In this document: positions 628 to 55,527 of the stretch, in pieces | Numbering within the stretch: the stretch's first letter is position 1 | How the letters are laid out: every line of letters begins with the position of its first letter | Assembly (NCBI RefSeq): GCF_004766055.1 | Contig: NZ_SPQR01000007.1 | Span: 186,001-250,000 of the forward strand | Length of the DNA stretch: 64,000 nt | Source of the DNA: Desulfosporosinus sp. Sb-LF | GTDB lineage: Bacteria > Bacillota > Desulfitobacteriia > Desulfitobacteriales > Desulfitobacteriaceae | Direction of reading: 5' to 3' | Notes under the pieces: model-generated | Seen by the model: the letters and a program-made list of their open reading frames with translations, nothing else | Databases searched by the model: none | What the model was told of the DNA's origin: nothing | Made by a program: the position numbers and the translations under genes

Positions 628-1362
628 ATGGATTTTTACCACGCTTTATCTGAATACTATGATGAGATCTTTCCATTAAAGGGACCACAGAAAACATTTC
701 TGCAGGATTATCTAAGGCAGGAATCTGTGTCATCGGTTCTTGATATTGGTTGCGGTACAGGGACGTTTGCTTTGGAAATGAGCCAAACGGGTGTGCAAGT
801 GCTTGGCGTGGATTTAAGCGATGAGATGATTGAGATTTCCAAAATAAAAGCTCAAAAAACAGCAAGCTCGGCTTCATTTTCAGTTGCGGATATGCGGGAC
901 CTAAGTAGTATCAATGAACGTTTTGACGGAATCGTTTGTTTGGGAAATACATTAGCACATGTGTCTGGGGAAATTGAGTTGAAACAAGTTTTGGCTCAAT
1001 TTCGTGAGAAGGGAGATCGACTGTTATTACAAATCGTGAATTACGATCGGATTTTGGCTCAGCAAATTAAAGAACTACCCTTTATCAAGACGGAACATTT
1101 ATTCTTTTACCGATTGTATACCCATCGTGCAGATGGGAAACTTGATTTTGCTATGAAAATTGAATTTCCTGCCACGAGACAGGTTGTGTCAGGTGTCAAC
1201 ATTTTATTTCCGATTACGTGCGATATCCTGAAAAATGCTTTAATGGATACTGGATGGGAAGTATCCAAACTATGGGGCAACTTTGAAAGAAAGCCATGGA
1301 CTGTAGATTCTCCTGCCACTATTTTGTCGGCGAAGCGAATACCACTCACTTATCTCAAGTAG
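628..1362 (+). CDS. Class I SAM-dependent methyltransferase
   Basis: A 244-residue soluble protein of the Methyltransf_25/11 type. Motif I is VLDIGCGTGTFALEM at residues ~38-52, followed by the acidic strand end VDLSDEMIEIS (~60-70) that would bind the SAM ribose, and a motif II-like region DGIVCLGNTLAHV near residue 100. The start is ATG 628, preceded by GAGAGGGTG at 614-622. It stands alone between the GH94 gene and a strong terminator. The substrate cannot be told from sequence; related proteins methylate small molecules or glycine-like amines, but that is family knowledge only. Confidence 0.8.
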   Translation: MDFYHALSEYYDEIFPLKGPQKTFLQDYLRQESVSSVLDIGCGTGTFALEMSQTGVQVLGVDLSDEMIEISKIKAQKTASSASFSVADMRDLSSINERFDGIVCLGNTLAHVSGEIELKQVLAQFREKGDRLLLQIVNYDRILAQQIKELPFIKTEHLFFYRLYTHRADGKLDFAMKIEFPATRQVVSGVNILFPITCDILKNALMDTGWEVSKLWGNFERKPWTVDSPATILSAKRIPLTYLK

Positions 1363-1429
1363 AGGGGTCATGGTGGTATTCACGGCATTAGAGTCTTAAT
1401 GTTGAAAAGCTAGTAGCTTTCCGAAAAAA

Positions 1430-52538: not shown

Positions 52539-52589
52539 GAGTAAAAAGTCACAGCTCAAAAAAGCGCATCTACGCTTAATTTTACATGT

Positions 52590-52697
52590 TCCTCTTCTCA
52601 TCCAGACTGTACTGTCGGCCCCGGAATGTCACCGGGTCTGCCAAAAGGCTCGCGGGCTTTACCGCCGGTAGGGAATTTCACCCAACCCCAGAGGATT
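52590..52697 (-). promoter_or_regulatory. FMN riboswitch (RFN element)
   Basis: On the minus strand the conserved order is present: GGGTGAAATTCCCTACCGGC, then GGTAAAGCCCGCGAGCC, CCGGTGACATTCCGGGGCC and GACAGTACAGTCTGGATGAG, closing with AGAAGAGG against the start CCTCT. It lies directly upstream of ribD and a terminator stands between. FMN binding should end transcription early. Confidence 0.96.
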
Positions 52698-52754
52698 ATT
52701 GTATATTTTAAATTTATTATAGTTTACTCTTAACTTTCGATTTTGGCAACCCTA

Positions 52755-53294
52755 TTATTTACCATGTAAGGAGAGAAACTCATCGCGCAATAATCCCATA
52801 AGAATGGCGTCGTGGTAGTTTCCTAATACGAAACGCGCTTCGCGCTGGCGGCCTTCGATTTTGAAACCGACTTTTTCATAAGCCTTAGTCGCACGAATAT
52901 TTTCATCCCACGTATCCAATGAGATACGGTGAAAATTCCACTGGGTAAAGAGAAAACGTATCAATGTGATTAATGCATCTGTGCCGTATCCTTTACCCCA
53001 ATATTCTTTATTTCCGATAACTATATAGAGAGTAGCTGATCGACCAGGAATGTTAACCTCTTTAAAACCCAAAGTTCCAATGAGTAAATCGTTTTCATCT
53101 AAAATTGCATAGCGATAGGTGTCCGGTGACCCGTCAAGAAACTTTACCGCCAGTTGATCTTTACTTTGTAGTGTATTCAATGGCCAAGCTCCGCTCGACC
53201 ATAGATTAACCTCTTGATCATTGTACCATAGGTATAAGGTATCAATATCATCTTCCTCAATAGGACGAATTCGTGTTTTTTGACCTTTTAACAT
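52755..53294 (-). CDS. GNAT N-acetyltransferase, RimJ/RimL-like
   Basis: 179 residues. Opening RIRPIEEDDIDTLYLWYND, acetyl-CoA loop NKEYWGKGYGTDALITLI (~93-110) and the later ISLDTWDENIRATKAYEKVGF region that matches the RimJ/L (SpeG-like) subfamily. The target may be a protein N-terminus, an amine or an antibiotic. Stands alone upstream of the riboswitch, on the same strand. Confidence 0.85.
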   Translation of the reverse strand: MLKGQKTRIRPIEEDDIDTLYLWYNDQEVNLWSSGAWPLNTLQSKDQLAVKFLDGSPDTYRYAILDENDLLIGTLGFKEVNIPGRSATLYIVIGNKEYWGKGYGTDALITLIRFLFTQWNFHRISLDTWDENIRATKAYEKVGFKIEGRQREARFVLGNYHDAILMGLLRDEFLSLHGK

Positions 53295-53439
53295 TTTGTC
53301 AAGATCTCCTTAAATGCGTTTTTTACTCTGAGTTTATTTATATCTTAACATTTTTCTACAATGCTGATCAACTTTTGAAGTAAAACGTTTAATCAGTGAC
53401 AATATTATTTCTTTAAGCATATACTAAAAGAAATAATAT

Positions 53440-53770
53440 TTTAACAGAAATAGTAGGTCAGATGGAGTTTTTAGGAAATTGGAGTGGGTGGAAGTCTGAA
53501 ACAGTTTTCTTTAACGGTATGGGTCTTCGAGTTGTGATCCAAAGACGTCGATTGTTAGAGGTTATGCCGGGAGTTTCCTCACAGAAACTCGGATATCGAG
53601 AAAAGCTTCTCTGCATCCGATTAGATGGTCTGAGATATGCTAATTTCCTTCAAATCGAAAGAAGTTCGGATTAAAGGAAAGGTAAAGACAATCTCAGGCA
53701 AAATAAGATGGTACCACAGAACTGACTTTCTGTCCTTTTAGAGGATAGGGGGCTTTTATTTTTTTAAATT
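53440..53770 (+). promoter_or_regulatory. T-box riboswitch-like leader upstream of an old yellow enzyme gene
   Basis: The 3' part has the T-box layout: TAAGATGGTACCACAG (53707-53722), an antiterminator bulge UGGUACC followed by ACAG that can pair with CTGT (53733-53736). In competition CTGTCC can pair with GGATAG, closing a terminator followed by a long T stretch (53756-53766). Upstream, AGTAG near 53452 and stems such as CCGGGAGTTTC/GAAACTCGG fit stem I and II/III parts. I could not read a specifier codon. A 70-codon frame here (53462-53674) is probably not translated. Confidence 0.6.
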
Positions 53771-53888
53771 GTATTCTCACGTATTTTATATGTTTGATAG
53801 GGAAAAGGATCCTTGTAAAACAAGATGATTTACAATAATATATTGTTTAAATTATAAATTTTTTCAAACACAAGGAGGGAAAAAGAAT

Positions 53889-54962
53889 ATGTTTTCAAAG
53901 AACAATATTAAGAATTTAAAGATTAAAAATAGAATTGTATTACCACCAATGGTCATTTTCAATTATTTAGAAGAAGATGGATTTGTAAGTGCTGAGCATG
54001 TAAACCACTACGAAGAAAGAGCTAGAGGCGGAATAGGCTTAATCATCGTTGAAGCGACCTGTGTCAATGCTAATGGTAGATTAGCGGGCAATCAGCTGAG
54101 ATTATGGTCGGACAAACACATTGTAGAAATCAGTAAGATTGTAAAGGCTTGTCATAATCATGGGGCCAAAGTTATAGTTCAAATTCATCATGCGGGTTTA
54201 AAAACTGTTCCGAGCTCATCAACGGATATTGTGGCTCCATCGATTTATGAAGAGAAGTCTAATCAAAAGAACAGCGGACTATCAGCTAGATCATTAACAA
54301 TTACAGAACTCCACGAGTTACAGAATGATTTTGTGGATGCTGCGTTAAGGGCTAAAAAAGCAGGGGCTGATGGAGTAGAATTGCATGGTGCACATGGGTA
54401 TTTGATAAGTCAGTTTCTGTCCCCTTTGATAAATAAAAGAGAAGACTCTTATGGAGGAAACTTGATTAATAGAACCAGATTTACAACTGAGATTATTACG
54501 GGAATAAGAGAAGTCACAGGCAAGGATTTCATGATTGGATGCAGGATGGGCTGTAATGAGCCTGACTTGAAAACGTCTATTGAAATAGCCAAAGAGTTTG
54601 AAAAGGCTGGGGCGGATTTGCTTCATGTTTCGATTGGGTTTGACATGACACCGAGTGAACTACCCGTGGTTCCGGAGGAATTTAAGCATAATTGGGTTGT
54701 ATATGGTGGTACAGAAATTAGAAGAAATGTTAATATTCCAGTTATAGTAGTAAACGGGATTAAAACACCCGAACAGGCTAGTGATCTCATAAAAAATGAT
54801 CAAGCCGATTTTGTGGCTGTTGGAAGGAGTTTGTTAGTGGATCCGGAATGGGTTAATAAAGCCCAACAAACTTTACCGATCAAACCTTGTTTGAACTGCA
54901 AGATCTGTCAATGGTTTAAGACTGGAAAATCTTGCCCCGGAAAAACCTCATCAATTTCATAG
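53889..54962 (+). CDS. NADH:flavin oxidoreductase, old yellow enzyme family
   Basis: 357 residues. FMN-binding TIM barrel with KNRIVLPPMVIFN (~13-25), ARGGIGLIIVEAT, IVQIHHAG (~93-100), the pair ADGVELHGAHGYLISQFLSP (~160-179) and FVAVGRSLLVDPEW near the C-terminus. At the end NCKICQWFKTGKSC has three Cys close to each other, resembling the [4Fe-4S] site of the larger dienoyl-CoA reductases, but the NAD(P)H-binding half is absent. AAGGAGG lies 10 nt before ATG 53889. It may reduce an activated double bond. Confidence 0.88.
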   Translation: MFSKNNIKNLKIKNRIVLPPMVIFNYLEEDGFVSAEHVNHYEERARGGIGLIIVEATCVNANGRLAGNQLRLWSDKHIVEISKIVKACHNHGAKVIVQIHHAGLKTVPSSSTDIVAPSIYEEKSNQKNSGLSARSLTITELHELQNDFVDAALRAKKAGADGVELHGAHGYLISQFLSPLINKREDSYGGNLINRTRFTTEIITGIREVTGKDFMIGCRMGCNEPDLKTSIEIAKEFEKAGADLLHVSIGFDMTPSELPVVPEEFKHNWVVYGGTEIRRNVNIPVIVVNGIKTPEQASDLIKNDQADFVAVGRSLLVDPEWVNKAQQTLPIKPCLNCKICQWFKTGKSCPGKTSSIS

Positions 54963-55029
54963 GAGTTCTTTCTTATAAATTATTGCGTTTCGCAGTGTAG
55001 CAAGGAATGAAATATTTATGATTAGAGAT

Positions 55030-55080
55030 GGCACTTGCACGGCGAAGGAAAGATCGAGAGTTCCGAAAGGAGTGCCTTTT
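55030..55080 (+). terminator. Imperfect stem-loop after the old yellow enzyme gene
   Basis: GGCACT (55030-55035) and AGTGCC (55071-55076) close a stem with an inner GGAA/TTCC, ending in TTTT. Probably a terminator with internal bulges. Confidence 0.45.
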
Positions 55081-55099
55081 CTTATCTTCAAAATAGAAA

Positions 55100-55130
55100 G
55101 AAAGCCACCCTAAAGGGCGGCTTTCCTTTT
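55100..55130. terminator. Terminator of the small membrane protein gene
   Basis: 12-bp stem 55100-55111 / 55114-55125 with one G-U pair and a 2-nt gap. A's on one side and T's on the other, so it can work on both strands. Confidence 0.75.
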
Positions 55131-55251
55131 AATAATTTTCAGTTTTTCTTTCCCAAGCTTTACCTAACCAAATCGCTCCTCCTATGCCGACAACATGGAG
55201 AGCCAACATACCAGGATTCAATAAACTAGTTTTACTCTTCATCATTCTCAT
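55129..55251 (-). CDS. Small membrane protein, 40 residues
   Basis: ATG 55251 has GAGGAGG 8 nt upstream. The product has a basic N-terminus (MRMMKSKTS), one hydrophobic segment NPGMLALHVVGIGGAIWLG and a charged tail KAWERKTENY. No family recognised. It is followed by a terminator and sits alone, next to a tRNA gene. Small single-span proteins of this kind are common in Firmicutes and often act on larger membrane partners. Confidence 0.6.
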   Translation of the reverse strand: MRMMKSKTSLLNPGMLALHVVGIGGAIWLGKAWERKTENY

Positions 55252-55527
55252 AATAGAAACCTCCTCTTTTAAATTGCAGTTTTAGTTTTTGTTATTTGAA
55301 TCGGAACAATACTAACTAAAATCTGTAAAAATAGTTGAGATGCCTAAAAAGAAAGCGAGGTTTCAACTAATGATGAATCAAGGGAGAAATTCATAAAATT
55401 ATAGCTTAAATAAACAAAATGTGTATTTGTCTCATTCGATTTGATCAAAATCCAATAAGTGGGTCAAAAGAAAGTTAGATAGTAAAAAAATAAAGGGCTT
55501 CCATCTAAGGAAACCCTTTGATACCAG

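Follow-up and report, generated by a model that had tools for sequence, protein, structure and literature searches.

A degenerate tryptophan T-box leader, probably the relic of a lost trp operon, in front of an old yellow enzyme gene of Desulfosporosinus sp. Sb-LF

The window analyzed here, a stretch of 64,000 nucleotides from Desulfosporosinus sp. Sb-LF, contains a locus with the gene order GNAT, leader, OYE, tRNA-Pro, DegV, CooC, where GNAT denotes an acetyltransferase gene and OYE a gene of the old yellow enzyme family. A preliminary description of this DNA had claimed a T-box-like leader with a UGGUACC sequence and a competing terminator approximately 120 nt before the OYE gene. This is confirmed by the coordinates, by the match to the Rfam T-box model and by homology to leaders of tryptophan operons. 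The features of the locus are collected in Table 1. Beyond the GNAT gene, an FMN riboswitch (window 52586-52699, reverse strand, 117 bits) is located before genes that resemble a riboflavin operon, their labels being derived from the frames alone. The FMN-dependent OYE happens to be encoded near this riboswitch, with the GNAT gene in between. Downstream of OYE, a hairpin GGCACT...AGTGCC with a short T-run is found at window positions 55030-55077, for which no family exceeds its cut-off. Weak Rfam matches near OYE (caiA, cow-rumen-4, sRNA and leader families) fell below the cut-offs and were taken as chance.

Table 1. Features of the locus, in window coordinates.
Feature	Position	Strand	Basis
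GNAT-type acetyltransferase gene, divergent, conserved left flank	52755..53294	-	comparison with relatives
Leader promoter GTGACA-18-TATACT, weakened	53396..53425	+	promoter scan, alignment
Trp T-box leader, degenerate	53432..53766	+	Rfam T-box model, blastn homology to trp-operon leaders
11-nt deletion relative to trp leaders, approximate site	53443..53449	+	alignments
AGUA of the specifier loop, kept	53452..53455	+	
AG bulge, AGGAAA versus AGCGAG in six aligned leaders before trp genes	53473..53478	+	alignment
GUA-UGG, specifier UGG (Trp) kept, preceding GAA of relatives changed to GUA	53517..53522	+	alignment
Antiterminator, AAGA before UGGUACC, AAGG in aligned relatives	53705..53737	+	alignment, folding
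Intrinsic terminator with T-rich tail, kept	53726..53765	+	terminator scan; homology to relatives stops about here
Unmatched stretch between leader and tRNA-Pro/DegV flank (no significant similarity to any of the four relatives compared)	53767..55461	+	
Candidate OYE promoter TTTACA-18-TATAAA	53829..53858	+	read by eye in AT-rich DNA
OYE-family (NADH:flavin oxidoreductase) gene	53889..54962	+	Pfam Oxidored_FMN, E 2e-72

The T-box model (RF00230) aligned end to end over positions 53432-53740 with 33.4 bits, corresponding to an E-value of 9.8e-6 for a 571-base stretch and 4227 families, and of 1.7e-5 for RF00230 alone in the 4.27-Mb genome. Since this score is far under the curated gathering cut-off of 93 bits, though above chance, the leader is absent from a default Rfam scan. 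A score below threshold had been named in the preliminary description as a mark against the leader; it does fall below, yet this genome has 19 T-box matches, of which nine lie under the cut-off and ten exceed it. The leader is the weakest of all 19, the next weakest reaching 57.7 bits. The UGGUACC bulge maps to 53709-53715. It is followed by a terminator hairpin of 12 pairs (53726-53752) whose T-rich tail ends about 120 nt before the ATG of OYE. The terminator scan found two overlapping sites, compared to 0.3 expected in shuffles. The folding energy of the terminator is -9.5, that of the relatives' terminators -10.0 to -14.4 (some with extra downstream pairs), and that of the genome's own trpB leader -8.2. 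The fold of the entire leader is unremarkable (z -1.6; 6 of 100 shuffles equally stable).

A blastn search with the leader yielded matches at 40 places in 29 of 45 family genomes (own included), the best with an E-value of 3e-74. Of the 39 located in relatives, 29 were examined as loci (L021-L049, two of them within one operon). The leader match is followed by trp genes at 27 of these loci, namely by trpC and/or trpF at eight and by trpB at 19. The remaining two are followed by a YgjP-like gene (G032) and by a contig end, respectively. At the G026 and G007 loci trpF is listed first, at 770 and 887 nt, since the listing took in only frames that begin past the match; trpC was confirmed to lie between leader and trpF in G026. 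The trp labels were profile-checked on examples and assigned by similarity otherwise. The operon of G027 bears the Pfam labels IGPS, PRAI, chorismate-binding, GATase, Glycos_transf_3, PALP and Trp_syntA, i.e., trpCFEGDBA, while trpB at L027 was labelled by NCBIfam. The closest leaders, which are 73-80% identical and score 72-97 bits, belong to G027 and G021, where they occur in tandem, and to G026 and G032. Nearest among them are first copies of trp leaders, which score 87-97 bits and are 76-80% identical to the window along more than 310 bases. By virtue of this relation the leader is a T-box sequence by descent and, judged by sequence similarity, it derives from a tryptophan operon, of which it was the first leader. 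Its specifier codon, left unread in the preliminary description, is UGG (Trp), because the relatives read GAA-UGG at the aligned position. An initial reading as Gly (GGU), suggested by a first alignment, was dropped once the relatives had been compared.

In two other genomes of the genus, G026 and G021, the same neighborhood houses a tryptophan operon. In G026, the gene order is GNAT, leader, trpCFEGDBA, a short gene, tRNA-Pro, DegV, CooC. G021 shows GNAT, leader and trpC before its contig stops inside trpD. In G027, GNAT and the trp operon reside on separate contigs, and the end of the trp contig matches the right flank of the window. Similarity between the window and its relatives breaks off at 53760-53766, just past the terminator, and picks up again at 55462 (G027), 55485 (G026) and 55528 (G032). 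The unmatched stretch thus delimited occupies the place of the trp operon in G026. Remnants of trp coding sequence, sought between leader and DegV in the window, did not appear with any useful E-value. The only candidate ends of a mobile element were two terminator-like stretches that form an imperfect inverted repeat (53744-53766 and 55483-55505), which we did not take as evidence.

Among 29 genomes of the genus, 27 contain GNAT. Four of the 27 show a leader match in the 1.5 kb after it, namely the window's own genome, G026, G021 and G032; in two of the 27 the contig ends within 300 bases. G032 lacks the trp operon at this locus and shows no trpC match genome-wide (assembly 94% complete). Its locus retains one full leader of 71.9 bits and one whose middle is deleted; another contig still carries trpB together with a leader homolog. 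These two leaders (L071, 7590-8145) are located ahead of a YgjP-like metallopeptidase gene. They resemble the window in being T-box leaders left where the trp operon is absent, and the bulge is changed in G032 as well (UGGCACA). They differ in that the first is better preserved, the second is middle-deleted and a YgjP-like gene stands next to them. At the same locus, G012 harbors a solitary trpF (L117, 1722-2417, reverse strand) without leader or other trp genes. In the locus stretches fetched from G015, G024, G033, G034, G023 and G010, neither a leader match nor a trp gene was found. A different OYE-family gene, 38% identical, lies between DegV and CooC at this locus in G024 (L119, 4924-5985, reverse strand), and G015 (L118) contains a piece of a gene similar to it.

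The genome under study encodes trpEGDCF on another contig, preceded by two T-boxes in tandem (121.8 and 118 bits); at a further site, trpBA follows a T-box of 84.5 bits. As these genes have T-boxes of their own, the leader in the window is not needed for tryptophan synthesis.

The OYE product comprises 357 aa and ends soon after a cysteine cluster. With NamA/BaiCD-type reductases (NF010047, NF041087) it shares the barrel domain and an E-value of 4e-79 to the NamA model; unlike these, it stays below the model cut-offs and represents a short form. No close counterpart exists among the 45 family genomes: nine besides its own match at E-values up to 1e-60, all at 38-41% identity, and for eight of these nine the matching frame is longer than 600 aa. 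Among 398 genomes sampled from the phylum, the top relatives by E-value, all from a single genus, reach 46-47% identity. This distribution of relatives suggests that the gene came from outside the family.

T-boxes are missing in front of the relatives of this OYE. None of 21 loci checked, each with about 1.5 kb of flanking DNA on both sides (L086-L088 left out of the T-box scan), shows one ahead of OYE; 19 have no T-box at all and two have one behind the gene. The latter belong to the closest OYE relatives, G299 and G171, with T-boxes of 109-110 bits (L074/L075, about 1153-1400, reverse strand). Located 3' of OYE, they precede a gene for a class I tRNA synthetase of the Glu/Gln type (tRNA-synt_1c by Pfam in G299), which we read as glnS with the T-box specifier CAA. 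They are thus not OYE leaders, and a T-box link of these OYE relatives was discarded. Near a further OYE relative (L083, 2362-2445, reverse strand), a fluoride-riboswitch-like match of 28.2 bits was noticed, below the cut-off.

The preliminary description had pointed out that a promoter between leader and gene would make the leader irrelevant. Such a promoter can be seen, as a candidate noticed by eye. Its boxes agree with the consensus at 10 of 12 positions, the same count as for the leader promoter, and matches of this kind are expected by chance in AT-rich DNA; the 122 nt ahead of the OYE ATG, from 53767, have a G+C content of 24%. The promoter scan missed the candidate because its rule demands T at the last position. 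A palindrome of 15 nt, ACAATAATATATTGT, is situated within it at 53832-53846. The leader promoter itself reads TTGACA/TATAAT in G026, G027 and G021. The scan that listed its weakened counterpart in the window returned two sites, compared to 2.3 expected by chance.

The T-box score separates the leader in the window from those that precede trpC: 33.4 bits versus 97.4, 90.4, 86.9, 85.3 and 81.3 bits for five of the latter. At 28 of 167 positions (17%) that are invariant in six leaders before trp genes, the window differs, by 23 substitutions and five gaps. Treated in the same way by leave-one-out, the five trpC-type leaders deviate at 16/183, 3/170, 9/176, 11/178 and 6/173 positions (2-9%), a control that is lenient to a reading as decay, since G021, G027 and their tandem copies are mutually close and the window is more distant. 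The first-mentioned set of invariant positions gives 17 of 167 for the G032 leader. The own trpB leader, a paralog that is presumably in use, deviates at 47 of 214 positions, 22 of which are gaps that stem partly from an extract cut short. Faster evolution of the leader as a whole was considered and dropped. Lineage-specific substitutions in the leader (351 columns) versus GNAT (522 columns) amount to 29 vs 31 in the window, 22 vs 22 in G026, 16 vs 20 in G021 and 38 vs 27 in G032, so that the rate is not clearly raised over the neighboring gene and the ratio in the window is like that of G026. Gap columns number 21 in the window versus 4-6. Only the kind and placement of the changes, together with these gap columns, speak for a decay of the leader sequence.

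In Stem I, the AUGA (GA/kink-turn) motif and the 5' strand of the basal helix that carries it are removed by the 11-nt deletion; each of the six trp-gene leaders in the alignment has this strand. The canonical kink-turn is therefore absent in the window, where a different local fold is possible. The apical loop of Stem I, GGUGGAAGUC, is close to the relatives' GGUGGGAGUC. In the antiterminator, the change to AAGA costs the pair next to the bulge. Among 26 matches to the pattern AAGx-UGGNAC, 25 read AAGG and the window alone AAGA, overlapping loci counting some leaders twice. In the window's own genome, 13 other T-boxes matched the motif pattern and every one has G before UGG, five more remaining unmatched. 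As drawn, the antiterminator reaches -0.9 kcal/mol in the window versus -5.3 to -6.3 kcal/mol in the relatives, and its lower hairpin alone -4.6 versus -5.4 kcal/mol in G026. The UGGU bulge would form a wobble pair with the discriminator G of the own tRNA-Trp. UGGUACC also occurs in G026, in the first leader of G027 and in the own trpB leader, the other aligned leaders having C at the last position of UGGN.

Compared to the Trp T-box leaders of Bacillota trp operons (RF00230), the leader is thus alike in whole-length homology, UGG, UGGUACC, terminator and the locus shared with G026 and G021. It is unlike them in being single, in having no trp gene behind it, and in its deleted kink-turn strand, its altered GAA, AG bulge and antiterminator pair and its low score.

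We consider it probable, at roughly three in four, that the leader is the decayed relic of a lost trp operon and that the OYE gene behind it is transcribed separately. The order of events may have been as follows. An ancestor would have possessed a trp operon with T-box leader between GNAT and the tRNA-Pro/DegV flank, as G026 does today. The operon would then have been lost from the locus, with the trp genes and T-boxes at the two other places serving the cell. The first leader would have remained, and an OYE gene foreign to the family would have taken the place behind it. With no trp gene left to control, the leader could have worn down, which would account for the weaker promoter, the lack of a canonical kink-turn, the altered specifier-loop and AG-bulge motifs and the weaker antiterminator. 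As the terminator is intact, leader transcripts would be expected to stop mostly near 53765, irrespective of the charging of tRNA-Trp. Most likely, the leader acts as a default terminator with little or no response to tRNA-Trp, and a separate promoter shortly before 53889 drives OYE. The earlier proposal of a link between the reductase and an amino acid thus finds no support, given a stranded trp leader, several damaged T-box features and an OYE gene without close family counterpart.

A working leader by which OYE was captured into the tryptophan regulon, with uncharged tRNA-Trp letting transcription proceed into the gene, is the alternative to be weighed most seriously, and we regard it as unlikely. 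It would fit the retained UGG specifier, AGUA, UGGUACC and strong terminator, the lack of any trp fragment between leader and OYE, and an overall substitution count not above that of the GNAT neighbor. It has to face, however, the 11-nt deletion over the kink-turn strand, the changes GAA to GUA, AGCGAG to AGGAAA and AAGG to AAGA, the weaker promoter, a score of 33.4 bits where leaders before trpC have 81-97, and the 21 loci of OYE relatives, none with a T-box ahead of OYE and two with one behind. To our knowledge, such a reductase has no role in the making of tryptophan. Slightly more doubtful still is the special case of a regulator capture soon after the event, in which a Stem I devoid of its kink-turn would go on sensing tRNA-Trp for a newly arrived flavin reductase. 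What speaks for a tryptophan control of OYE is only the set of motifs that remain.

That the leader has been kept solely as a constitutive terminator or a small RNA appears improbable. Hairpin and T-tail are kept and the sensing part is damaged, as would be expected; however, little transcription should arrive from the side of GNAT, which is divergent, and the time since the operon was lost may be too short for a terminator to decay. A chance resemblance without any T-box, which the score under the Rfam cut-off and the fold z-score might suggest, is refuted by the homology to first-copy trp leaders and by the leaders of G026 and G021, which adjoin the same neighbor gene.

The interpretation as a stranded relic may be compared with published work on T-boxes. 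A study on a glycine T-box states that loss of the kink-turn harms tRNA binding, and that kink-turn and T-loop changes harm both binding and function (PMC6197855). In contrast, a T-box with a noncanonical GA motif exists in B. subtilis alaS, according to PMC4695836, which also notes that the specifier codon normally fits the downstream gene. Tryptophan synthesis is described, in PMC12452182, as the standout pathway under tandem T-boxes in Bacillota. The acquisition of T-boxes by new genes has been proposed for transporters, in PMC2494555, and for this reason a capture by OYE stays open. Within the limited literature searched, no paper was found on a T-box riboswitch together with an old yellow enzyme, on a T-box with a flavin oxidoreductase and its specifier, or on a T-box as a degenerate riboswitch relic.

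Since leaders can outlive their operons, a T-box ahead of a gene need not imply control by an amino acid, which corrects a tempting functional reading. Within one genus, the locus offers a small natural series comprising a trp operon preceded by its leader (G026, G021), a solitary trpF (G012), leaders without the operon (G032) and a leader with another gene (the window), completed by the six genomes with neither leader nor trp genes. With such a series, it can be tested directly whether a riboswitch decays or is captured. A further T-box of 99.3 bits (L009, G000:C3:232326-232570) is located ahead of an ABC_sub_bind transporter gene.
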